Assembly (NCBI GenBank): GCA_030428255.1
Contig: JAUIBT010000032.1
Span: 1-33,799, forward strand
Direction of reading: 5' to 3'
Length of the DNA: 33,799 bases
DNA from: Alphaproteobacteria bacterium
Lineage (GTDB): Bacteria; Pseudomonadota; Alphaproteobacteria; UBA7985; JAUIBT01
Both the position numbers and the translations under genes were made by a program. This document shows, in pieces, positions 5,033 through 33,171 of this stretch. Numbering within the stretch: position 1 is the first letter of the stretch; every line of letters starts with the position of its first letter. The notes beneath the pieces are model-generated. The model did not search any database. It worked only from the letters and a program-made list of their open reading frames with translations, and was not told the origin of the DNA.

Positions 5033-6166
5033 CTAGCGAAACATGGGCGGACGCGCGTCCATCCATGCGCCACCGTTGTTCGCAGACGCCACAGCGACAT
5101 GCACCGCGGCCACAGAGCGCAAACCATCAGCAGCCTTGGGCAAACCATCGCGAACCTCGCCGCGAATGGCATCAGCCAGATCGCAATAAATATTGGCCAC
5201 CGCCAAAGGGAAACCCTCGGGATGCGCAATCGCGATCCGCGACAAGCGCTGAGCGTCCTCATGCAGCCCACCCTCGCCTTTCTCGATGATCTGCGTGCGC
5301 CCGCCCACCGGGGTATAGATGAGCTGGTTGGGCTGCTCTGAAGCCCAGCGCAAACCGCCGGTCTCGCCAAAGACTTGAATGTCAAAACCATGTTGGCGCC
5401 CAATCGCCACCGAGGAGGTCCAAAGCCGCCCAACAGTGCCGCCTTGCATGCGGAAATTGACCATGGCGTCATCTTCAAGCTCGCGGCTGGCGATTGTCGA
5501 AGCGAAATCGGAAGCCAGGCGCGCGACCTCATCGTCACAAATGAAGCTCGCCATGTGCAAAGCATGAATTCCACAGTCCGCGAACTGGCCGGAGACCCCG
5601 GCCATAGCCGGGTCATAGCGCCAGCGCACCCGGGGGTTATCGGCATCACTGGCATCGCCATGATGTCCGTGGCTGAAGTTTGTCACCACTAAGCGAACCT
5701 TGCCAATCTCACCCGCCCGCACCATAGCCCGCGCTTGTCGCACCATGGGATAGGCCGAATAGCAGTAGTTCACGGCGCAAATCTTGCCCGAAGCTTTGGC
5801 GACGCGCACGATCTCCTCGCCCTCTTCAACCGTCATGGTCATGGGCTTTTCGCACAAGACATTGAAGCCGGCCTCCAAGAAGGATTTGGTGATCTCAAAG
5901 TGGGTCGAATTCGGTGTTGCAACCGTGACCAAATCAATACGGTCGCTGCGGTCTTTCTCGCCCGCCAGCATCTCTTGCCAATCACCATAGGCACGGTCAG
6001 CGGCAATACCAAGCCGCTGTGCATACTCACGGCCCACATCCGCGCGATGATCCAGCGCACCAGCCGCCAGCGTGAACTGGCCGTCCGCCTGGGCGCCCAA
6101 GCGGTGGGCTGGCCCAATTTGGCTTCCTTCACCACCGCCGATCATACCCCATTTTAGCTTTGCCAT
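5033..6166 (-). CDS. Gfo/Idh/MocA-family NAD(P)-dependent oxidoreductase, probable inositol-isomer dehydrogenase
   Basis: A 377-residue cytoplasmic oxidoreductase with an N-terminal Rossmann fold (GMIGGGEGSQIG, residues 7-18). The family EKP signature contains the catalytic lysine (E106-K107-P108). In the second domain, ADCGIHALH places Asp197 and His201 at the positions usually involved in catalysis. It is the last gene of a three-gene operon with an IolE-like enzyme and another dehydrogenase, 12 bp after the iolE stop, with a GGAA ribosome binding site. Such paralogues next to iol genes usually oxidise scyllo- or D-chiro-inositol, or interconvert inosose isomers, feeding the main pathway. 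Which isomer cannot be read from the sequence; an oxidoreductase for another sugar is possible. Confidence 0.85.
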   Translation of the reverse strand: MAKLKWGMIGGGEGSQIGPAHRLGAQADGQFTLAAGALDHRADVGREYAQRLGIAADRAYGDWQEMLAGEKDRSDRIDLVTVATPNSTHFEITKSFLEAGFNVLCEKPMTMTVEEGEEIVRVAKASGKICAVNYCYSAYPMVRQARAMVRAGEIGKVRLVVTNFSHGHHGDASDADNPRVRWRYDPAMAGVSGQFADCGIHALHMASFICDDEVARLASDFASTIASRELEDDAMVNFRMQGGTVGRLWTSSVAIGRQHGFDIQVFGETGGLRWASEQPNQLIYTPVGGRTQIIEKGEGGLHEDAQRLSRIAIAHPEGFPLAVANIYCDLADAIRGEVRDGLPKAADGLRSVAAVHVAVASANNGGAWMDARPPMFR

Positions 6167-23349: not shown

Positions 23350-24293
23350 GAAAGGGACACCCTTGGATCAAGGCGTGCGTAGGCCAGATCCACCAACAGG
23401 TTGATAAGCATGTAGAAAATGACGATGATCAAAATGACACCCTGGATCACCGGGTAGTCGCGTCGCAAGATCGACTGCACGACCAAGCGCCCAATGCCGG
23501 GTAAGGAGAAGACCGTTTCGGTCACTACCGCCTCGCTGACCAGGGCGGCGAATGTAAAGCCGAAGGCTGCGGCCACGGCAATCAAGGCATTGCGAAAGAT
23601 GTGCTTGATCGCAACACGCGCAGGATGCAGCCCCTTCGCCCGCGCCGTGCGCACATGGTCCTCGCGCGCAACATCCAACATAGAGGCACGCACCAGGCGA
23701 ATGATCAAAGCTGCGTTGGGTGCCGCGAGCGTCAGGCTTGGCAGCATGAGATAGCGCAAATTAAACACGCCGCCTTCGTCGGTGATCGACGGAAATCCCG
23801 AAGACGGAAACCAGCCAAGCCCAACCGCAAAAATCAAAATCAAATAGAGGCCTAGCCAGAAAGTCGGGACAGAGGCGAACAACATGGCGCCGCCGGAGGC
23901 CAACTGATCGGCCCAAGTCCCGTGGCGGGTGGCGGCAAGGATGCCGATAGGAATGCCCAAAACTATGATCCACATCATGGTCATGCAGGCCAATAGGATC
24001 GAAGTCTCCGCGCCGCTTGCAATGACTGCCAAGACCGGCTCTCGAAAGAACACAGAGGTGCCAAGATCGCCCTGAACCACGTTAGAAAGCCAGATAAAAT
24101 ATTGTGTCCACAATGGCTTATCTAGACCCATCGCACGCGTGAGTTCGGCGATCTCCTCGGGCGTTGCAGTGTCCCCCAACAAGATCGAGGCAGGGTCTCC
24201 GGGGATAAGATGGATAAACAAGAAGACCAAGATCGACGCGGCTAACAGCGTCGGTATCAGGGCCAGCAACCGGTTGAAGGTGTAGACAAACAT
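23346..24293 (-). CDS. dppB: peptide-type ABC transporter permease, DppB-like
   Basis: A 315-residue inner-membrane permease beginning with a membrane helix (MFVYTFNRLLALIPTLLAAS). The conserved HLIPGDPASILLG and ATPEEIAELTRAMGLDKPLW follow. The EAA loop is in VRTARAKGLHPARVAIKHI, and the C-terminus VDLAYARLDPRVS is typical of DppB/OppB. It follows the binding-protein gene by 69 bp containing a strong hairpin and is coupled to dppC by a 4-bp overlap. Confidence 0.93.
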   Translation of the reverse strand: MFVYTFNRLLALIPTLLAASILVFLFIHLIPGDPASILLGDTATPEEIAELTRAMGLDKPLWTQYFIWLSNVVQGDLGTSVFFREPVLAVIASGAETSILLACMTMMWIIVLGIPIGILAATRHGTWADQLASGGAMLFASVPTFWLGLYLILIFAVGLGWFPSSGFPSITDEGGVFNLRYLMLPSLTLAAPNAALIIRLVRASMLDVAREDHVRTARAKGLHPARVAIKHIFRNALIAVAAAFGFTFAALVSEAVVTETVFSLPGIGRLVVQSILRRDYPVIQGVILIIVIFYMLINLLVDLAYARLDPRVSLS

Positions 24294-24317
24294 GGGGCGA
24301 TCCTGGGTGGTGGAGGC

Positions 24318-24350
24318 GGCCTCCTCTGCCGCTGTGCGGCAGGAGAGGCC
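24318..24350. other. strong intercistronic hairpin between dppA-like and dppB-like genes
   Basis: GGCCTCCTCTGCCGC (24318-24332) pairs with GCGGCAGGAGAGGCC (24336-24350) around a TGT loop, with only the central two pairs mismatched. No T-tract follows on the transcribed minus strand, so it is not a standard terminator. Such hairpins after binding-protein genes commonly protect the upstream mRNA segment and raise binding-protein output over the permease; this role is inferred. Confidence 0.6.
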
Positions 24351-24362
24351 GGGGAGGATACG

Positions 24363-25904
24363 TTACTTGGAGACGTTCCAGAAGCTCGGCCAAATCAAAG
24401 TGGCCTCACCAAGTCCTTGAAGTTTGGGCGATGCAATGTTGTAGCTGTAGACATCACCAGTCTTCATGGTCGGAACCTGCTCATAGATCAGGCCCTGGAT
24501 TTCTGACCAAATCGCCTGGCGTTCGGCAGGGTCTGAGCTTTCGGTAAAGCGCACCTTCAGGGCCGCCTTTTCCGCAGTTGTCCACCAACCGGGGTAGTTG
24601 TCATTCATGACCGAGATCAGGATGGGGTCGGGCACGAAACCGTGGTGCGTGAAGAACAAGTCCCACTGGTCCGGCTGCGCGCGCTTTTCGATCAAAGTTG
24701 CCCAGTCATAGACCTGCAGGTCGATGTTGAAGCCTGCTTGTGCCAATTGCTTAGTGTAGACAATCGCCGTGTCGTAGTGGAAGGGGTAATTGGTTGACAC
24801 CATGAACTTGATTGGCTCGCCATTGTAGCCAGCCTCTTTCGCCATAGCGCGGGCAGCAGCAGCGTCGCCCTTGCTGAAGTTCTCCGTCCCAGACTCGCTG
24901 TACCAAACGTTGCCGTTGGGCAAGAACGAGCCGTTGGCACGCCAAAGGTTCTTCGGACCGATTGCAACTTGCAGCGCTGGCGTCTTGTTGATCGCGGTCT
25001 GGATGGCACGACGCAGAGCGAAGTTTTCCTTCAAGGGGCCGTCTTTTGAGTTCATGAACACCAGGCCGAAGATCGGGCCGCCATTCAAAATTGTGGTCAC
25101 AGACGAGTCTGCTTCTAAGTCGGCATATAGGTCACCTGGGATGCTTTCGGCATAGTCATAGTCACCTGCCTTCAGGCCAGCAACACGTGTGCCCACGTCA
25201 GGAACCGGGATGAATTCCAGCGTGTCGAAGTCTGCGACACGGGCTCCGCCGTAGCCGTCCGCATCGCCACTGGGCGAGGCGTAATCGTCGTAGCGGATCA
25301 GTTCAACATGTCGGTTGGCCTGCCACTCTTCGAACTTGTAAGGACCTGTTCCAATGTAGTTTTCTGGCGCAATGGGCTCTTTGCCGGCCCCCTCAACGAC
25401 CGACGCCGGATAGATCGCAGGACCGCCGTTGATGAAGGCCATGATGTTCTTCCAAGGACCAAACGGGCTGCTCAGCCTGATCGTCACCTCATAAGGGCCA
25501 CTGGCCTCAACACTCTCGACGTTGCCGAACAACAGGCCGCCGCGCGAGCCATACTTGCCCCAACGGTTCAAAGACGCCACCACGTCAGCAGAGGTCATAG
25601 CCTGGCCGTTGTGGAAGGTCACATCATCGCGCAGAGCGATCACGATGGTCTTGCCATCCTCGGACACAATCTCACCAGAGGCGAGCAGTGGGACGGGAGA
25701 GTTGGTGGAATCAAAAGTGTAGAGGCCTTCAAAAATATGGTGTGCTATGGTTGTGGCCAAATCAGACGTAACAACATGCTGATCCAAGCTGGGGGGCTCG
25801 CCTACGGTCGCGTAGCGCAGTGTGCCGCCGGCAAATGCGAAGCCGGCGATCGCGGTCATCGCCCCCGCTAGCACCGTGGTCTTTGCCCAATTTCTAAGTT
25901 TCAT
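24363..25904 (-). CDS. dppA: periplasmic substrate-binding protein, family 5 (DppA/OppA-like)
   Basis: A 513-residue extracytoplasmic solute-binding protein of SBP family 5. A signal peptide (MKLRNWAKTT, a hydrophobic core, cleavage near FAFAG) is followed by the family pattern LRYATVGEPPSLDQH, HHIFEGLYTFD and DDVTFHNGQAMTSADVVASL. It ends with the usual C-terminal lobe. A GGAGGA site precedes the ATG. It is the first gene of the dppABCD/F-M81-DSD1 operon, with a candidate promoter containing a perfect TTGACA box and an overlapping RpiR-type operator. The family binds peptides but also opines, nickel chelates and sugars, so the ligand is open. Confidence 0.93.
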   Translation of the reverse strand: MKLRNWAKTTVLAGAMTAIAGFAFAGGTLRYATVGEPPSLDQHVVTSDLATTIAHHIFEGLYTFDSTNSPVPLLASGEIVSEDGKTIVIALRDDVTFHNGQAMTSADVVASLNRWGKYGSRGGLLFGNVESVEASGPYEVTIRLSSPFGPWKNIMAFINGGPAIYPASVVEGAGKEPIAPENYIGTGPYKFEEWQANRHVELIRYDDYASPSGDADGYGGARVADFDTLEFIPVPDVGTRVAGLKAGDYDYAESIPGDLYADLEADSSVTTILNGGPIFGLVFMNSKDGPLKENFALRRAIQTAINKTPALQVAIGPKNLWRANGSFLPNGNVWYSESGTENFSKGDAAAARAMAKEAGYNGEPIKFMVSTNYPFHYDTAIVYTKQLAQAGFNIDLQVYDWATLIEKRAQPDQWDLFFTHHGFVPDPILISVMNDNYPGWWTTAEKAALKVRFTESSDPAERQAIWSEIQGLIYEQVPTMKTGDVYSYNIASPKLQGLGEATLIWPSFWNVSK

Positions 25905-25944
25905 AGCTTCCTCCTATACAAAAAATTACACGTTCATGTCGTGA

Positions 25945-25959
25945 TGTAACTTTCTTACA
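25945..25959. promoter_or_regulatory. RpiR/HexR-type operator overlapping the dppA -10 region
   Basis: TGTAACTTTCTTACA is a perfect TGTAA-N5-TTACA inverted repeat, the same form as the known HexR (RpiR family) operator. It overlaps the presumed -10 of the minus-strand dppA promoter, so a bound regulator would repress by steric block. A second copy in inverted orientation lies at 26019-26033, and a degenerate half-site, TGTAA on the minus strand, lies close to the dppA ribosome binding site. Confidence 0.75.
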
Positions 25960-25981
25960 TTTCATCCTCACCATTTGTCAA
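25952..25981 (-). promoter_or_regulatory. candidate sigma-70 promoter of the dpp-like operon
   Basis: On the minus strand a perfect TTGACA -35 box (25981-25976) is followed after 18 bp by TAAGAA (25957-25952) as a weak -10. The -10 lies inside the TGTAA-N5-TTACA operator. Transcription would start about 40 bp before the dppA ATG. Confidence 0.5.
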
Positions 25982-26018
25982 GAATTTGTTGTGAACCTTT
26001 GAAACACTTGCTAGTTTA

Positions 26019-26033
26019 CGTAAGAAAGTTACA
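26019..26033. promoter_or_regulatory. RpiR/HexR-type operator upstream of the ridA-like gene
   Basis: CGTAAGAAAGTTACA matches the operator at 25945-25959 in inverted orientation at 14 of 15 positions. It lies 23 bp upstream of the ridA-family ATG, around the expected transcription start. A weak TTGTGA...TAGTTT promoter (25989-26017) precedes it. Centre-to-centre distance to the other operator is 74 bp, close to seven helical turns. Confidence 0.7.
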
Positions 26034-26056
26034 CATTACCTAAGGAAAACCCAAAA

Positions 26057-26461
26057 ATGTCTCAAGCCATTGTCCGATATGATTCCGCCGATGCGGCGGC
26101 AGGCGGCACGAATCGCCCCTTCGCCAAGGCCGTGCGGGCCGGCGATTTCGTCTACGTCTCTGGCCAGGTGCCGAGCGTTGACGGAGAGATTATTGTCGGC
26201 GGAATCGGCGAGCAAACCGAACAAGTCATCCGCAATATCATCGCTGTGCTCGCACTTGCAGACTGTGGTCTAGAGCACGTAGTCAAGGTCAATGTATGGC
26301 TTGATGACCCCCGTGATTTCACCAGTTTCAACGGGGTCTTTAAGCGGTATTTTTCCGACCACCCGCCAGCCCGCTCGACCGTTCAGTCCCAGCTGATGGT
26401 GGATGCGAAGGTTGAAATTGATGTAATCGCCTATAAGCCCATGAGTCAGACGGGTCGGTAA
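26057..26461 (+). CDS. RidA/YjgF-family enamine/imine deaminase
   Basis: A 134-residue protein of the RidA family, which forms homotrimers and hydrolyses reactive enamine/imine intermediates released by PLP-dependent dehydratases. The active-site arginine is conserved in PPARSTVQ (Arg106), and Glu120 follows in KVEIDVIAY, matching the catalytically competent RidA subgroup. An AAGGAAA site precedes the ATG. It is divergent from the dpp-like operon and upstream of the RpiR and sugar-acid kinase genes. Its presence next to a DSD1-family PLP enzyme suggests a deaminating dehydratase step in the pathway. Confidence 0.9.
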   Translation: MSQAIVRYDSADAAAGGTNRPFAKAVRAGDFVYVSGQVPSVDGEIIVGGIGEQTEQVIRNIIAVLALADCGLEHVVKVNVWLDDPRDFTSFNGVFKRYFSDHPPARSTVQSQLMVDAKVEIDVIAYKPMSQTGR

Positions 26462-26527
26462 CCAGCGCAAGCCCCGCAGCCCCTCTCTGCGCTCTTCCCC
26501 AGCGCCCTCTCAGAAAAGCTAGGACCC

Positions 26528-27406
26528 ATGAACAAAGTAATCGACATCATTTCGCAAATGCGCAGCCTTGATGGGAGGTTTCCCAAGCAAGAACAGAAGG
26601 TCGCGGACTTTATCCTCTCCCAGCTTGAGCCTGCTTCTCAGATGACCCAAAGCGACATCGCCGAGGTGGCGGGCGTTTCGGTGGCCACGGTCAACCGCTT
26701 TTGCCAGGCGCTCGGCTGCGAGGGCTTTCGCGACTTCAAGATCCGGTTGGCGCAAAGCGTCGCCGTCAGCCTGCAGTATCTTGGCGGGCCGGGGCGCGCG
26801 GATTCGGAGTCGGATCAGTTGGTGGCTCAGGTTTTTGGAGCCTTGGTGGAGTCGCTCAATCGCGTGCGCCCACAACTGCTTGCCAGCGCAACACACGAGG
26901 CCATCAGCCTCCTCGCCCAAGCGCGTCGCATCTCCTTCATGGGGGTTGGCGGTGGCTCGGCCAACGTCGCTCGCGAGGGCGCGAACCGCTTTTTCAGGTT
27001 GGGGATTCCCGCCGAAGCCCACTCTGATGGCTATTTCCAGCGCATGCTAGCCTCAACCTTGTCTGATGGCGATGTGGTCTTCGCCATTTCTGCCAGCGGC
27101 CAGCCTACTGAGCTGCTGGACAGCGTTGCGATCGCACGCCAATACGGAGCCAAGACCATCGCCTTGACCAAGACGGGCTCTGCGCTGGCAAAATCCGCAG
27201 ATATCGCTATCGAAATCGATATTCCCGAAGATCAGGATATTTATAAGCCCTCAGCCTCGCGGTTGGTTTTCATCGCTATCGTCGATGTGTTGGCGGCGGG
27301 CGTTGCCCGCAAGCGTCCTGAGCTGGCCAAAGAATACCTGCGTCGCATCCGCACCTCGCTCATTTCCCTGTCAGACGACGTGGGACCCAAGCCCATTGGT
27401 GACTAA
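26528..27406 (+). CDS. RpiR-family transcriptional regulator (HexR-like)
   Basis: A 292-residue regulator with an N-terminal HTH_6 domain, roughly residues 1-78, in which VAGVSVATVNRFCQALG is the helix-turn-helix. A C-terminal SIS sugar-phosphate-binding domain starts around RISFMGVGGGSANVA. HexR-type members bind KDPG, the product of KDG kinase plus further ED metabolism, and recognise TGTAA-N5-TTACA; both the operator form and a KDG kinase are next to this gene. It lies 66 bp after the ridA-like gene and 4 bp before the kinase gene, so it is probably in one transcript with them and autoregulated. Confidence 0.92.
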   Translation: MNKVIDIISQMRSLDGRFPKQEQKVADFILSQLEPASQMTQSDIAEVAGVSVATVNRFCQALGCEGFRDFKIRLAQSVAVSLQYLGGPGRADSESDQLVAQVFGALVESLNRVRPQLLASATHEAISLLAQARRISFMGVGGGSANVAREGANRFFRLGIPAEAHSDGYFQRMLASTLSDGDVVFAISASGQPTELLDSVAIARQYGAKTIALTKTGSALAKSADIAIEIDIPEDQDIYKPSASRLVFIAIVDVLAAGVARKRPELAKEYLRRIRTSLISLSDDVGPKPIGD

Positions 27407-27410
27407 TCTT

Positions 27411-28325
27411 ATGTCCAAACCTTTCACAACTGCTTGCCTCGGAGAGGCCATGGTGGAGCTGTCGCTCGACGGCGATACCACCAGCCTTGGCTTTGCTGGT
27501 GACAGCCTGAACACCGCCATCTATTTGCGCCGTGGCTTGTCGCAGCAGTATAGCGTGTCCTTCGTCTCAGCCATCGGTGCCGACCCCTTGTCGCAGCGCA
27601 TGCTGCGCTTTATCAGCGCCCAGGGCGTGCGCACAGATCACCTGGCACAAAACCCTGAGAAATTGCCCGGCCTCTATGCGATTAACACGGATGAGGCCGG
27701 CGAACGCAGCTTTTTGTATTGGCGTGAGAATTCGGCAGCATGCGCTGCTTTTGATCAGGGATTTGACGCCCTGAGCGGGTTCGACCTAATTTATCTATCT
27801 GCCATTTCACTGGCCATTGTTCGACCATCCGTGCGGGATGCTTTGCTGACGTGGCTTGAGAATTGGCCCGGCCGGGTCGCCTTCGACTCCAACTATCGCC
27901 CGCGCTTGTGGGAGAGCCAAGAGGCCGCGCGCGTCGCCATCGCCCGGGCTTGGCAGCGCGCAGACATCGGCTTGCCTTCCCTGGACGACGAACAAGCTCT
28001 GTTCACTGACAGCGATGAGCAAACGACCTTGCATCGCCTGCAGGGCTATGGCCTCAAGACAGGCGCGCTGAAACGTGGCCCCTTGGGGCCAAGACTGCTC
28101 TCCGGCCAAACCATTGATCAACGGCAGCTCGCATCACCTGCTCAGATTGTCGATACGACGGCGGCAGGCGACAGCTTCAACGGCGCTTTTCTTGCGGTCT
28201 ATTTGTCCGGAGGCTCGCAAGAGCAGGCCGCCATAGCGGGGCACGCTTTAGCCTGTAAAGTCATCGGTCACCGCGGTGCAATTTTGGCATCCAGTCCGTC
28301 AAATGGCGAGGTGTCCAAACTTTAG
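27411..28325 (+). CDS. kdgK: PfkB-family kinase, probable 2-dehydro-3-deoxygluconokinase
   Basis: A 304-residue sugar-acid kinase phosphorylating 2-keto-3-deoxygluconate to KDPG (EC 2.7.1.45). The N-terminus ACLGEAMVELS and GFAGDSLNTAIYLRR are typical of KdgK (GDxxNTA pattern). SFLYWRENSAA is the substrate-facing segment with Tyr/Arg, and TTAAGDSFNGAFLA is the PfkB signature with catalytic Asp254. The frame is open further upstream to 27285, but the ATG at 27411 gives the expected N-terminus and follows the regulator by 4 bp. It is the last gene before the prophage remnant. Another keto-deoxy sugar acid kinase activity is possible. Confidence 0.88.
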   Translation: MSKPFTTACLGEAMVELSLDGDTTSLGFAGDSLNTAIYLRRGLSQQYSVSFVSAIGADPLSQRMLRFISAQGVRTDHLAQNPEKLPGLYAINTDEAGERSFLYWRENSAACAAFDQGFDALSGFDLIYLSAISLAIVRPSVRDALLTWLENWPGRVAFDSNYRPRLWESQEAARVAIARAWQRADIGLPSLDDEQALFTDSDEQTTLHRLQGYGLKTGALKRGPLGPRLLSGQTIDQRQLASPAQIVDTTAAGDSFNGAFLAVYLSGGSQEQAAIAGHALACKVIGHRGAILASSPSNGEVSKL

Positions 28326-28469
28326 AGACCAGCCAAGAAGCCGCTCATAGCTTAAAAAGATCGATGTTTGTACGTCGGGCGACGGTTGGACGCCAAAGTG
28401 GCGCCCCCTTTCTCGCCAAACAGCCAACGGCGCATCAATCTTCGTGACCATGGCCGAGCGCATGCACAT

Positions 28470-28853
28470 GAGGCGCGGTCCAAACTGGTCGGTCAAAAAT
28501 TCTTTGGTCGGGCCCACATAGATGATCGGCGCCGGACGCTGATCAAGGCGCGCGCCAATGATATCCAACATGCTGTCGGTCTTGCCCGTTTGGGCCGCGG
28601 TCACAGCCACCACCCGCCTATAGCCGCCTTGATGTACCGCCGATGACCAAGGGATCATATAGGGCGTTAGCTTGGGATTGCGGGGGCCAGGTAGGCCGGC
28701 TGTTTCAGGATAGACGCGGTTCTCCGCCGCCCAAGCTGCTGGGCTCTGCTTCTTGGCCGGCCGTAGGATCGAGGCTGCCAAGAGCCAAAGACTGGCTTGC
28801 TTGTTGCGCCTGGCCTGCGATGCGTTCCAAAGATCCATCAACCTCTTGCTCAA
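28470..28853 (-). pseudogene. phage terminase large subunit (GpA-like), C-terminal part lost
   Basis: About 128 residues of the N-terminal part of a lambda-GpA-type terminase ATPase are recognisable. ILRPAKKQSPAAWAAENRVY is followed by RVVAVTAAQTGKTD (Walker-A-like, residues 86-92) and PIIYVGPTKEFLTDQFGPRL. Beyond about 28470 the frame runs on to 28299 as unrelated sequence, even overlapping the end of the convergent kinase gene. The downstream ATPase residues and the whole nuclease domain are missing. The normal protein is about 600 residues. The true start is uncertain: the ATG at 28853 overlaps the small-subunit gene by about 150 bp, and a TTG at 28781 is an alternative. The prophage cannot package DNA with this gene. 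Confidence 0.75.
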
Positions 28854-29247
28854 GCGCGCGCCGCGCTTCTAAATCTCGTGTAAAGCGCGCGGGCAAGCCC
28901 CCAAATTCAGCGCGGAACAGGGCCGCCAAGTCACCAATCACCGCCCTGGCATCTTCGGTGGGCATAAGTTCTTTGCTGCGCTCTTGGATGCGCAGTTCAA
29001 TCTCGCGCGTGCGCGCTTCGCTGGCCTTGGTCGCAGCAGCGGCCTTATTGTTCTTGGCGAGCTGATCTTCGTAATAGGCCATGGCCCCGCGGATCAAACT
29101 GACCAGGGCATATTCTCCGCGCCCTGCTTTATCGACATAACCCGCTTTGGCCAGCCCCTGCACCCAGCGTTCAGAGCGCCCCATCAGGGCTGCTGCCTGG
29201 CCTAGCGATAGGGTCTGGCCTCGGGCTTGCTCATTAGATTGGGCCAT
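28705..29247 (-). CDS. phage terminase small subunit-like DNA-binding protein
   Basis: A 180-residue protein with an N-terminal winged-helix/HTH segment (LSLGQAAALMGRSERWVQGL), resembling Nu1/terminase small-subunit DNA-recognition domains. A charged, probably coiled-coil helix follows (AKNNKAAAATKASEARTREIELRIQERSKELMP, about residues 63-95), with a Glu/Arg-rich C-terminal helix. Its position directly before the large terminase supports the call. ATG at 29247 is preferred; a TTG at 29256 extends the frame by three residues. No strong ribosome binding site is visible. Confidence 0.7.
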   Translation of the reverse strand: MAQSNEQARGQTLSLGQAAALMGRSERWVQGLAKAGYVDKAGRGEYALVSLIRGAMAYYEDQLAKNNKAAAATKASEARTREIELRIQERSKELMPTEDARAVIGDLAALFRAEFGGLPARFTRDLEARRALEQEVDGSLERIAGQAQQASQSLALGSLDPTAGQEAEPSSLGGGEPRLS

Positions 29248-29260
29248 AACAATCAATCAG

Positions 29261-29449
29261 TTAATCGAAGAGCGCCAACAAGGCGGGCGGACCATCGAGA
29301 AAGAATATGCTGCCATCCGCGTTGGTATTGGCCTCGCCGCATCCTTTGCCAGGTGCTTTGAGCTTCAAGGTATCTTGGTTCAGTCGTATTGCCAGCACGC
29401 CCTTTGGTAGCTGGTTCATAGGAAGGGGTTCGCGCAAAAAGGCTTTCAT
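29261..29449 (-). CDS. small hypothetical phage-region protein
   Basis: A 62-residue frame beginning MKAFLREPLPMNQLPKG, with a GAGG site 8 bp before the ATG. It ends 13 bp before the small-terminase start. The sequence has no recognised domain or membrane segment. A second overlapping frame (29253-29456) in another phase is less convincing because it is Arg/Trp-rich and lacks a site. The call rests on ribosome binding site and position only. Confidence 0.5.
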   Translation of the reverse strand: MKAFLREPLPMNQLPKGVLAIRLNQDTLKLKAPGKGCGEANTNADGSIFFLDGPPALLALFD

Positions 29450-29675
29450 CGTTCAAACCTCATATCAGCAATAACCATCGCCCGGCAGATTTGGTTTGCA
29501 GGCTTGTGAATTTCAAGATCGCAGCCCGCACCGCCACAATCCTGCCGCCTGCCCGCCTGCTTTAGGAAAAATTTGTCTTCAACTTTCCATGTTGGCAGGC
29601 AGGCGTCCTTTCTGGCAGCAAATGCGACCTAGGATGCACGGCCTATTTGCGCGTATTTTCCCACCTGGAGGCACC

Positions 29676-30674
29676 ATGCTGAAACTCATAAAGTGGATCG
29701 AAAGGTCTTGGCTTGTGCTCTACGCTGGAATGCTCGTGATCGCCGGCCTGGGAATAGCCACTGGCCAGTATTTTCAAAATAAGCGGTCAGTTCAAGAATC
29801 ACTCGCGGCCCCCAGTTTGATTTTTGATCGTGTAGACCATCCGATGGACGGCTTTGGTGCGCCCTATGTTGAGCCGTCATTCCCGCAAGAATTATCCGAG
29901 GCAACCGCAGCCTCATTCTTCGGCCTGAAAGACACCCAGGCCACCGAAGCGCCTGTCTATGGCAGCAATGGCGTGCTTTATTGGGCAAGCTACGACCCGT
30001 CTGATTCTTTGGCTCCAAAGCGCCGCCCCCTGGCCCCCAGCAAGCGCGCCAATCCTTTTGTCACGCAAAAGCTAGAACACCTGGGCCCAACCAACGTCGA
30101 TGGCGGCCGCGTGCGCCTGGTTGGTATAAATGGTGTCACATGCATTAATTTGCCGTATGCGAATATTGTTCTGGGAGAGGGCGAGGTTCATGAGGTTTAC
30201 AAAGGCACCTTAAGAATTGCAGACGCAAGAACGTTGCCAATCCAATACCTCATCTTAATCGACAACAAGCCCGTGAGTCTGGCCTTCCGTTTGCCGGATG
30301 AAAGGGTCTCTGTCGATCCTGACGACTATGTTCTGACGTCTTCGCAAACTTGGGTGCCATCTTTAGAAGCCGCTGAGCGCTTGGTCGCAAACGCCTTTGC
30401 CGCCACCGACAACCCTCAAACACAAGCCGAAGCCTTGCTTGGCTTTGTGAGCTACCACGCTCTTGATGAAAGCAGTTTCAGCCTAGAACAGGCGGAATCG
30501 CTTCTTACCAAAGCAGCAGAACTGGGTCACAAGCCATCCCAAGAATGGCTCGCCTTTGCCTATGACGTGGGCGACGTCTTCGCGCAAGACAAAGCAAAAT
30601 CCAGATATTGGGCGAAGCGTGCCCAGGATCCTGAGGTCATGGGCGAGCACGATCCCTACCTCGTAGCTTTTTAG
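29676..30674 (+). CDS. membrane-anchored protein with C-terminal Sel1-like repeat
   Basis: A 332-residue protein with a single N-terminal membrane helix (LVLYAGMLVIAGLGIATG, about residues 13-30) and a large, probably periplasmic, domain of unknown type. A C-terminal Sel1/TPR-like helical repeat follows (SLLTKAAELGHKPSQEWLAFAYDVG and KSRYWAKRA). The start at 29676 has a GGAGG site 4 bp upstream; the frame extends upstream to 29496 without support. It is on the opposite strand from its phage neighbours and lies between prophage gene groups, so it may be an accessory (moron) gene. Function is unknown. Confidence 0.72.
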   Translation: MLKLIKWIERSWLVLYAGMLVIAGLGIATGQYFQNKRSVQESLAAPSLIFDRVDHPMDGFGAPYVEPSFPQELSEATAASFFGLKDTQATEAPVYGSNGVLYWASYDPSDSLAPKRRPLAPSKRANPFVTQKLEHLGPTNVDGGRVRLVGINGVTCINLPYANIVLGEGEVHEVYKGTLRIADARTLPIQYLILIDNKPVSLAFRLPDERVSVDPDDYVLTSSQTWVPSLEAAERLVANAFAATDNPQTQAEALLGFVSYHALDESSFSLEQAESLLTKAAELGHKPSQEWLAFAYDVGDVFAQDKAKSRYWAKRAQDPEVMGEHDPYLVAF

Positions 30675-30737
30675 GTTCTTAGGCTGGGGAAGGCGCGCGC
30701 ATGCGGACCTTAACCCCAGTAGCCTAGCATTGTGATC

Positions 30738-30986
30738 TTATTGATAACCGCGCTTGTGGTATTTTTTAACCCAGCGATCAAAGTTGCGCTGACCGCCTTT
30801 ACCCAATCGAATCGTCTTAGGCGCCGCCAGACCGATGGTTCCTGTTGGTGTCTTGCGAACATAGCAACTGCCGCTGTCGCACCACAAGAACAGCAATTCC
30901 TGGCCCTTGCGCATAATCGTTGAAGCGGCCTGCGCCGATGATGCCAGCAATACGCCCGCAAGAATGCCTGCAATTAATGTTTTCAC
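30738..30986 (-). CDS. small secreted hypothetical protein
   Basis: An 82-residue protein with a clear signal peptide (MKTLIAGILAGVLLASSAQA, cleavage after AQA). The basic mature part of about 60 residues has two cysteines in LWCDSGSCYVRK, likely disulphide-bonded in the periplasm. It ends with a Lys/Arg/Tyr-rich tail. No family recognised. An AGGA site precedes the ATG. It sits downstream of the methyltransferase on the same strand in the prophage remnant. Confidence 0.6.
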   Translation of the reverse strand: MKTLIAGILAGVLLASSAQAASTIMRKGQELLFLWCDSGSCYVRKTPTGTIGLAAPKTIRLGKGGQRNFDRWVKKYHKRGYQ

Positions 30987-31046
30987 GTCTCTAGTCCTGC
31001 CAGAAATTCATAAGAGCGCGGACACTAGATAGCCTCTCAGCTGCGG

Positions 31047-32306
31047 TCAATCTGCAAATGTGGATACCCCCTCCAACACCGCCTTTTCGCCTGTATAGTC
31101 TTCCCAGCGTTTGACCGCCACATCGACGTAGGTGGGGTTGAGTTCGATGCCCAATGCAATGCGCCCTGCCATCTCGGCTGCGATCAAGGTGGTGCCAGAG
31201 CCCATGAAGGGCTCGTACACTGCTTGGCCTGGGCTGGAGTTATTCTCCATCGGCCGGCGCATACACTCGACCGGCTTTTGGGTCCCATGGACGGTCTTGC
31301 TATCCTGGTCCTTGTTTGGAATATACCACAAAGTTGTCTGCTTGCGATCGCCAGCCCAATGGCCTTTGGCCTTTTGGCGCACAGCGTAGATGGCAGGCTC
31401 ATGCTGCCAGTGGTAATCGCCGCGCGAGAGCACCAAGCGCTCTTTGGCCCAGATGATCTGGCTGCGCATGGTAAAGCCGCAGGCCTCCAAGCTCTCGATC
31501 ACCTCGCGTGCATGGAGCGCGCCGTGCCAGACGTAGGCAACATCACCTGGGAAGAGAGCCCAGGCCTCGCGCCAATCCGCCTTGTCATCATTGAGCACCT
31601 TACCCGTGCGCTTGGTCTTGGCTGCCCCTGCTGCATTGCGCCAGGCCGGATCGTACTCCACGCCGTAGGGTGGATCTGTGATCATGAGGTGGGGGGTTAC
31701 GCCACCCAGCACCCGCTCAACGTCCGTGGCCACTGTGCTATCGCCGCAAAGCAGGCGGTGCTTGCCCAAAAGCCAGAGATCGCCTGGCTTTGTAATCGGC
31801 TCTTCCGGCGGCTCGGGGATATCATCGGGGTCAGTGAGGCCGCCGGTGGCGTCTAACAGAACCTCAGGGATCAAGCGCTCAAGGTCAGCCTGGCTAAAGC
31901 CAATGCCCGTCAGATCATCAAGGCCGAATTCTGCGTGCAGGTCACCAAGTTCAACGCGCAGCATCTCAGGGTCCCAGTCAGCGATCTCTGCCAAGCGGTT
32001 ATCGGCCAGCGTATAAAGGCGCCGGTCTTCATCGGACCAACCACGGGCCACCATGACCGGAACCTCGGCAAGGCCAAGCTTTGCCGCGGCCAGCAAGCGT
32101 CCATGGCCTGCAATGATGGTGCCGTCTTCTGCGACCAGCATAGGAATGGTAAAGCCAAAGCGCTCGATGGATCCTGCGATCTGCTCGACCTGGTCGTCTG
32201 GGTGAAGCCGAGCATTCTTAGCGTAGGGCACCAGGTCTTCGACCGGCCACATCTCAACGCTTGCCGCGGGCCATGCAGCCTGCTGGATGGAAGTCTTGTT
32301 TGTCAT
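31047..32306 (-). CDS. ParB-like domain/DNA methyltransferase fusion, phage-type orphan
   Basis: A 419-residue protein. Residues about 17-115 form a ParB/Srx-like nuclease-fold domain (EDLVPYAKNARLHPDDQ and IIAGHGRLLAAAKLG). Residues about 175-410 form a beta-class amino methyltransferase with motif IV DPPY (211-214), TQKP (342-345) and the AdoMet motif I FMGSGTT (367-373). The motif order, DPPY before FxGxGTT, defines the beta class, which makes N6-adenine or N4-cytosine. No restriction enzyme gene is adjacent. Such fusions are common upstream of terminase genes in alphaproteobacterial prophages and are thought to protect or mark phage DNA. A repeat-rich 331-bp region lies immediately upstream. 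Confidence 0.9.
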   Translation of the reverse strand: MTNKTSIQQAAWPAASVEMWPVEDLVPYAKNARLHPDDQVEQIAGSIERFGFTIPMLVAEDGTIIAGHGRLLAAAKLGLAEVPVMVARGWSDEDRRLYTLADNRLAEIADWDPEMLRVELGDLHAEFGLDDLTGIGFSQADLERLIPEVLLDATGGLTDPDDIPEPPEEPITKPGDLWLLGKHRLLCGDSTVATDVERVLGGVTPHLMITDPPYGVEYDPAWRNAAGAAKTKRTGKVLNDDKADWREAWALFPGDVAYVWHGALHAREVIESLEACGFTMRSQIIWAKERLVLSRGDYHWQHEPAIYAVRQKAKGHWAGDRKQTTLWYIPNKDQDSKTVHGTQKPVECMRRPMENNSSPGQAVYEPFMGSGTTLIAAEMAGRIALGIELNPTYVDVAVKRWEDYTGEKAVLEGVSTFAD

Positions 32307-32637
32307 GAGATCTCGTTGGGCTTTGGCGAAACGAAGCAGGTTTTACAAGGCCATTTCGTTTCGCGGCATGCTAAGCTATTGATTTATTTGAATACCGATG
32401 CGCTGAAACGAAACGCATTGGCCGGGGGCCATTTCGTTAATTCGCACCCTAAGTCATTGATTTTGCGCGTTTCATATGCCGAGTTAACGAAACGAAATGG
32501 CTTTTTCGATTTCAAAAAAACGCGCATGGATCGGGCGGCGGCGCACCGCACCATTACTGGGTGTCCAAAGGGACCCAAGGGGTGAGGTATTCCGCATGGT
32601 TGCTGGGTTTGTTGCCACAGCCGTTGGTTGCATAACT
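32307..32637. other. repeat-rich intergenic region upstream of methyltransferase gene
   Basis: This gap has no convincing gene. Its left half carries the duplicated inverted-repeat array described separately, and its right half holds an A-run (32513-32521) and no recognised site. It would contain the promoter and leader of the methyltransferase gene, read on the minus strand. Confidence 0.5.
32349..32501. repeat. two tandem degenerate units of about 75-78 bp, each an inverted repeat of GGCCATTTCGTTTC / GAAACGAAATGGC
   Basis: Unit 1 (32349-32426) begins GGCCATTTCGTT, contains CTAAGCTATTGATTT and ends with GAAACGAAACGCATTGGCC. Unit 2 (32427-32501) begins with the identical 12-mer GGCCATTTCGTT, contains CTAAGTCATTGATTT and ends CGAAACGAAATGGC. 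Within each unit the ends are complementary, and the 14-mer CGAAACGAAATGGC at 32488-32501 is the exact reverse complement of 32350-32363. A further GAAACGAAG lies at 32328-32336. Possible roles are operator array, structured leader or replication/packaging site; nothing in the sequence decides between them. Confidence 0.75.
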
Positions 32638-33171
32638 TTAATGTTCAAACAATACACTCAATTGACGTAAAACCTCATCCAAGACAGCTGGACAGGAGCC
32701 CTCAAAACTACGCAGACTTGCGCCCTTGATTAACTCTTTTGGGGTGGATGGGCCGTACAACCTCCTTATAGGAAGGCGTTCCTTGGATTTTCGAATAAAC
32801 ACTTCACCCTTAAGTTGATCGACGATGAAGGCTGACTTGAAGCGCTGTGAGCGTCCCCAAGGCTTGGCTCTAACGCCGTAGGAGAACTGCTTGGCGCCAA
32901 AGTGCGCTAGGCTCATGTGATCGCCTGTGGCAACGATCTTGTAGGACAGCCTTGCCTTTGTCGCTGGGATGGTTTTGGTCTGGCTTCGGATGACGCCAGC
33001 CTTGATGCCCGTCTGCTGGCGTAAGGCCCTACGCACCTTGGTGCGGACCTTATCGCCTTCTTTGTTCAGCGCCCTGGCAAAAGCTGTGGTCGCCGCCCCC
33101 TCACCCAGCCGCTGGACTGCAGCTTGGAAGTGGATGCGAGTCTGGTCGAGGTCTTTGATGATCAAGGTCAT
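32638..33171 (-). CDS. phage minor tail protein Z (GpZ-like)
   Basis: A 177-residue protein resembling the prophage minor tail protein Z family. A helical N-terminus contains AFARALNKEGDKVRTKVRRAL. QQTGIKAGVIR and the conserved core FSYGVRAKPWGRSQRFKSAFI follow, and then KERLPIRRLYGPSTPKEL. This family works in tail completion near the head-tail connector. The ribosome binding site is weak. It is isolated from other tail genes within the window, and its order relative to the terminase differs from lambda, pointing to mosaicism or rearrangement. Confidence 0.78.
   Translation of the reverse strand: MTLIIKDLDQTRIHFQAAVQRLGEGAATTAFARALNKEGDKVRTKVRRALRQQTGIKAGVIRSQTKTIPATKARLSYKIVATGDHMSLAHFGAKQFSYGVRAKPWGRSQRFKSAFIVDQLKGEVFIRKSKERLPIRRLYGPSTPKELIKGASLRSFEGSCPAVLDEVLRQLSVLFEH

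Follow-up and report, generated by a model that had tools for sequence, protein, structure and literature searches.

The window (the whole stretch of 33,799 nucleotides that was analysed) carries on its minus strand a gpZ-like gene, a repeat array, a DNA methyltransferase (MTase) gene, a gene for a terminase small subunit (TerS) and a fragment of the large subunit (TerL), in that order, followed by host genes. The locus is a prophage remnant, with the following genes:

32638-33171, minus strand: gpZ-like minor tail or neck protein (phrog_27), just upstream of the cos site proposed below, and likewise in relatives
31047-32306, minus strand: ParB-like/N6-N4 DNA methyltransferase (phrog_498), in these phages the first gene to follow cos
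28705-29247, minus strand: TerS (phrog_57, the lambda Nu1 family), a wHTH protein with recognition helix RSERWVQGL
28299-28853, minus strand: TerL fragment (phrog_15/GpA_ATPase), truncated

The TerL fragment covers only positions 3-71 of the 247 in the GpA_ATPase profile; in the relative L004 TerL is full length. With a TerS of phrog_57 and a TerL fragment of phrog_15, a terminase of the Nu1/gpA type thus lies close to the array. Between the MTase gene and terS there are, in addition, an opposite-strand gene (29496-30674, plus strand) with a weak match to phrog_8741 and a small ORF (30710-30973, minus strand), which are possibly a later insertion into the remnant. A contig from a sister genome (L199 on contig C71 of G002, a different genome of the same genus) matches positions 23447-31446 of the window at 99.99% identity, over 8 kb that take in the remnant and adjoining host genes; the other MTase copies of that genome are just 65-70% identical. 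This near-identity might reflect a recent transfer, very close strains or a contig shared between the assembled genomes.

The array occupies the interval between the gpZ-like gene and the MTase. The sequence-only reading had described here two inverted-repeat units sharing a start, a middle and an end, and both were recovered, at 32349-32423 and 32427-32501. They form a direct repeat (32349-32385 and 32427-32463; 76% over 37 nt, spacing 78), and each contains inverted arms of the form GGCCATTTCGTTTCG / CGAAACGAAAtGGC, at 32354-32369/32398-32413 in the first unit and 32432-32444/32480-32492 in the second. A fifth copy of the motif, a half-copy reading CGAAACGAAG, lies at 32327-32336, so that the minus-strand orientations run > < > < >. 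The array is not a product of chance: its count of TTCGTT/AACGAA cores was reached by none of 5,000 dinucleotide shuffles (shuffle mean 0.24). The region is unique within its own genome, and in relatives it is non-coding, as indels between the aligned copies are not multiples of three.

The shared middle of the units, CTAAG..ATTGATTT, is in both of them an exact IHF consensus when reverse-complemented: the conserved CTAAGNNATTGATTT reads AATCAATNNCTTA on the other strand, an exact fit to WATCAANNNNTTR. Two exact matches to this consensus, which is that of E. coli and is here applied to an alphaproteobacterial host, arose in only 1 of the 5,000 dinucleotide shuffles. Four genes of the HU/IHF family are present in the genome. 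If the unit middles are IHF sites, and the arm motifs are denoted R, the minus strand reads R> IHF <R, R> IHF <R, R>.

This order recalls the cos site of phage lambda. There, TerS binds the R3, R2 and R1 sites of cosB, of which R2 points the opposite way from the other two, and an IHF site separates R3 from R2; once IHF has bent the DNA, a TerS dimer can dock on R3 together with R2, TerL nicks cosN, and cosQ is required for stopping at the next cos (PMC4669245, PMC9026076). Set against this plan, the features of the window on the way from the gpZ-like gene to the MTase are:

32570-32576, minus strand: cosQ-like heptamer GGGTCCC (lambda GGGTCCT), taken as offset 0
32526-32550, minus strand: cosN-like GC-rich stretch GGTGCGGTGCGCCGCCGCCCGATCC, which aligns with relatives
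32483-32499, minus strand: candidate TerS site equivalent to R3, CATTTCGTTTCGTTAAC (core 32488-32497), offset 79 from cosQ
32450-32462, minus strand: putative IHF site 1, AATCAATGACTTA, exact consensus, offset 114
32428-32444, plus strand: candidate R2 equivalent, inverted, GCCATTTCGTTAATTCG on the plus strand
32402-32423, minus strand: candidate third R site, opening the second module, GGCCAATGCGTTTCGTTTCAGC (core 32404-32413)
32372-32384, minus strand: putative IHF site 2, AATCAATAGCTTA, exact consensus
32349-32366, plus strand: candidate fourth R site, inverted, GGCCATTTCGTTTCGCGG (core 32354-32363)
32326-32340, minus strand: candidate fifth R site, in the orientation of R1, CTTCGTTTCG (core 32327-32336)

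The window thus presents the series > IHF < twice and then a last >, with both IHF matches exact. Its cosQ-like heptamer is identical to that of lambda at 6 of 7 positions, and dozens of prophages keep such a heptamer ahead of their MTase gene. The register agrees as well: counted from the first base of cosQ, the window and lambda alike have the R core CGTTTC at 82 nt (the TTTCGYTTCG core of the R3 equivalent begins at 79), IHF near 114 and R2 near 140, and the distance between R3 and cosN is that of lambda (bp 50-65). In lambda the sequence reads GGGTCCTTTCC, with the cut ACG/GGGCGGCGACCT/CGCGGG 30 nt from its start and R3 following (slashes mark the cut here and the predicted cut at corresponding positions below).

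The cosN of the window itself is recognisable only via its relatives, which were gathered as MTase homologues from viral contigs, genome contigs and related genomes. It matches lambda at 10 of 20 positions, inside the random range (random mean 8); its right half is altered, such that GCGGTGCGCCGCCGCC is kept and the flanking symmetry is lost, and the predicted nick falls near 32546/32547. In the relatives, by contrast, cosN is a two-fold-symmetric GC-rich stretch reading ATGCG/GGGCCGCCGCCT/CGCGGG, with up to 17 of 20 positions identical to lambda, against a maximum of 14 of 20 over 20,000 random positions with shifts allowed. With the close homologues of the MTase (Tateyamaria, Marivita and environmental contigs) the array recurs at the corresponding position, and ahead of it stands CCCTTGGGTCCCTTC..GCG/GGGCCGCCGCCT/CGCGG..CGTTTTTT; judged by its sequence, this leader is that of lambda cos in the same register. 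The Rhodobacterales prophages related to the window likewise show the same site with a lambda-like cosN. Hence, the array is not missing upstream of close homologues, even though its motif can change.

Across the relatives the elements keep their positions and vary in number. An IHF-like site is found at offset 114-115 in 16 of the 18 loci examined, an inverted R site near offset 140 was detected in those where it is well preserved, and the first R, IHF and inverted R of the window sit at the same offsets as in the relatives. The simplest forms (L006, L010, L011, L033, L044, L046 and L162) have a single R site with no inverted partner, and this lone copy keeps the conserved distance from cosN. 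The sister species (L197) has one R-IHF-R module, with R at 81, an IHF-like site at 115 and the inverted R at 140. Two modules plus R1 are seen in the window and its closest relatives. Searches further afield were negative: blastn of the cos regions of the window, L118 and L128 against 50,697 phage records gave no match; no GGGTCC string occurs near the MTase in the upstream region of L194, the best MTase match among phage records, or on the plus strand of AmM-1 (L195). One contig that ends at a cosQ-like string (L224) gave no sign of the gene set of the window, and a search of the scanned viral contigs for ends lying inside cosN returned none that was useful.

These forms bear on the earlier suggestion that the repeats might encode a structured untranslated RNA with two large stem-loops. 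The inverted repeats can indeed pair, with a folding z-score of about -2.2 on either strand, but such a value is expected of any inverted repeat; a scan of the whole window gave no Rfam match, covariation contributes only -1.59 of -25.92 kcal/mol to the consensus folding, and the single-site relatives, lacking an inverted partner, cannot form the stems. We consider this reading extremely unlikely. The array resembles combinations of integrase arm sites with IHF sites and could on that ground be taken as a site of recombination or integration (attP-like) or as a transposon end. Yet no integrase or recombinase gene was found beside it, it occupies the same place between neck gene and MTase in relatives, the adjacent cosQ and cosN match lambda, and the R motif matches TerS (see below), leaving this alternative almost no chance of being right. 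An attP and a plasmid iteron origin were also considered as candidates and dropped.

The choice of R motif proved to be related to the terminase. In lambda and phage 21, packaging specificity is set by the recognition helix together with the R sites (PMC4669245, PMC9026076). Among the loci holding both cos and TerS, we found 19 distinct combinations of helix and motif, which fall into four classes with no exception:

helix S[ED]RWV[QR]GL or SERRVQQL, with R motif TTTCGYTTCG
helix SRRW[VI][YF][ND]L, with R motif TGCACTGCAC (includes L196 of the same genome and L197 of the sister species)
helix SVPWVQML, with R motif TTACGTTATG
helix S[TRN]QW, with R motif TGGAGTT

Two dissociations set the recognition helix apart from the remainder of the protein. 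The TerS proteins of L010 and L011 are 96% identical in their C-terminal part and 59% in the DNA-binding domain, and their motifs differ. Conversely, the C-terminal parts of the TerS of the window and of L068 share only 23% identity, and both proteins have a helix of the pattern SER.VQ.L and go with the motif TTTCGTTTCG. L068, whose TerS is 33% identical overall to that of the window, carries this helix pattern and R motif on another cosQ-cosN backbone, which suggests module exchange or convergence. Few independent lineages underlie the match of motif and helix, from which we infer that TerS would bind at the R sites. In the structural model of TerS, the N-terminal domain is a winged helix (pLDDT 81-88 over residues 11-60). 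The folds closest to this DNA-binding domain are the viral DNA-packaging entries 7lxs, 7lwr and 7lw0 and the related 6hn7 (Z 7.2-7.7), with gpNu1 (1j9i) at Z 5.7; these Z-scores, all below 8, are modest, and other wHTH proteins follow close behind. A search of PDB sequences with the TerS profile recovered no terminase.

If the array served the MTase or a regulator, its motif should track those genes; instead it tracks the helix of TerS. The MTases of L006, L010 and L011 on the one hand, and those of L112 and L118 on the other, resemble that of the window to the same degree (74-82% identity), yet the two sets stand behind different motifs. The same observation tells against a site for the ParB-like domain of the MTase, which adjacency and the name of the domain had recommended, and we give that proposal next to no credence. 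An operator array, with several dimeric sites in alternating orientation through which a phage or host regulator would control the MTase, has in its favour the several inverted sites and a position just upstream of the start codon (about 20-200 bp). Against it, differences in motif go with the TerS helix rather than the MTase, it is the spacing from cosQ and cosN that is conserved, and the simple relatives have a single site; we deem it very unlikely, though TerS binding could affect transcription of the MTase as a side effect. The TTTCGTTTCG motif also resembles a DeoR-type operator, a reading that was considered and dropped.

Taken together, the elements, their order, spacing and conservation, the families of TerS and TerL and the pairing of R motif with TerS helix lead us to interpret the array, with high confidence, as the cosB segment, to which terminase would bind, of a lambda-type cos (packaging) site that lies in a prophage remnant and whose R-IHF-R module is doubled, with one more R> after it. 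The earlier idea of a phage element that offers protein-binding sites in alternating orientation agrees with this interpretation, and the impression that it was no known element gives way, as the layout is that of the lambda cos site. By analogy, IHF would bend the DNA at each of its sites and thereby bring the oppositely oriented R sites of each module face to face, and a TerS dimer would grip the pair through its winged-helix domain. TerS would then hold a gpA-type TerL over cosN, about 50 bp upstream of cosB, where staggered nicks would yield the cohesive ends and start packaging; cosQ, 30 bp further upstream, would stop it at the next cos.

Such binding, bending and cutting would apply to the site of the window in its intact form: since its TerL is truncated and its cosN altered, this copy probably no longer packages DNA. 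The cosB, TerS and MTase gene are intact. Their retention beside a decayed cosN and TerL raises the idea that a TerS-IHF-cosB complex is kept for another use, such as control of the MTase gene or interference with the packaging of incoming phages of the same specificity, which we regard as unlikely.

A lambda-type cos is a known kind of site, and its form with a doubled R-IHF-R module appears to be new: the open-access papers searched described neither such a site in prophages of this group nor a doubled module. With lambda, whose complex cosB has the order R3-I1-R2-R1, and its relatives 21, Monarch and gifsy-1, the window shares the cosQ-cosN-cosB order and the R3 register. It further shares the inverted R2, the IHF site between R3 and R2, the last R in the orientation of R3 and the terminase families phrog_57 and phrog_15. 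It differs in having five R and two IHF sites in two modules, where lambda has three and one, in its R motif (TTTCGTTTCG against CGTTTCCTTTCT in lambda) and in its altered cosN; moreover, lambda cos directly precedes terS, whereas here the MTase gene and further sequence intervene. In N15, cosB is simple, with a lone R (PMC4669245, PMC9026076). The single R at the R3 position in L006, L010, L011, L033 and L046 is like the simple cos of N15 and that of the PICIs, from which the array of the window differs as a complex, enlarged form.

With this site, a lambda-type cos is identified in prophages of Alphaproteobacteria, at a great distance from the phages of enterobacteria in which cos was elucidated, and its cosB is doubled in size. 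The natural series from one R through one R-IHF-R module to two modules plus R1, combined with at least four matched pairs of TerS helix and R motif, offers a set for studying the way DNA is read by TerS, the shifts in packaging specificity and the purpose of the IHF-bent complex. Identification of cos also allows prophage ends and cargo to be predicted from sequence.

A comparison with known ends is offered by roseophage vB_DshS-R4C, for which a 14-nt 5' cohesive end was reported (PMC6836515). Its record ends in GGGTCCTTCCTGGCGGACGCCACACG/GGGCACTTCGGCTG at the right and begins with CGCG at the left, with exactly 14 bases between. Joined, it reads GGGTCCTTCC..ACACG/GGGCACTTCGGCTG/CGCG, where the cut after ACACG is our reading of the record ends, modelled on lambda; the cosQ GGGTCCTTCC and the cut context CG/GGG.../CGCG are as in the group of the window. 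The last gene of R4C, at the right end before cos, encodes a minor tail protein that matches phrog_27 weakly, and the TerL of this phage belongs to phrog_15 (gpA-type). Unlike in the window, terS directly follows cos, R4C TerS scores best with phrog_141, and no R-IHF-R array was seen in the 84 bp before terS.

Further sites of this kind were observed in other prophages. A second prophage of the same genome (L196, on contig C4 of G000, with cosQ at base 5058 on the minus strand) has its own cosQ-cosN and a cosB with one inverted partner, whose R motif CACTGCACTGCAC differs from that of the window and is accompanied by the matching TerS helix SRRWIFDL. As this cosB/TerS pair differs from that of the window, two packaging specificities appear to be present in one host. 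L115 (from 4638 onwards) and L232 have the same cosQ-cosN backbone with a further R motif, GATAGAGTTGG / CCACTCTATTGG; no TerS was found within the stretch fetched for them. Another large group of prophages from Rhodobacterales, to which many of the loci in L012-L067 and L119-L155 belong, has the cosQ GGGTCCTTCC, a cosN-like TATACGGGCGGGCGAAGCGCGC, a different TerS (MEGLSERQYAARVGLSRGAIQKAK..) and repeated GGAAGCCACCC / GGCATCCACCC motifs, which look like candidate R sites for that TerS.
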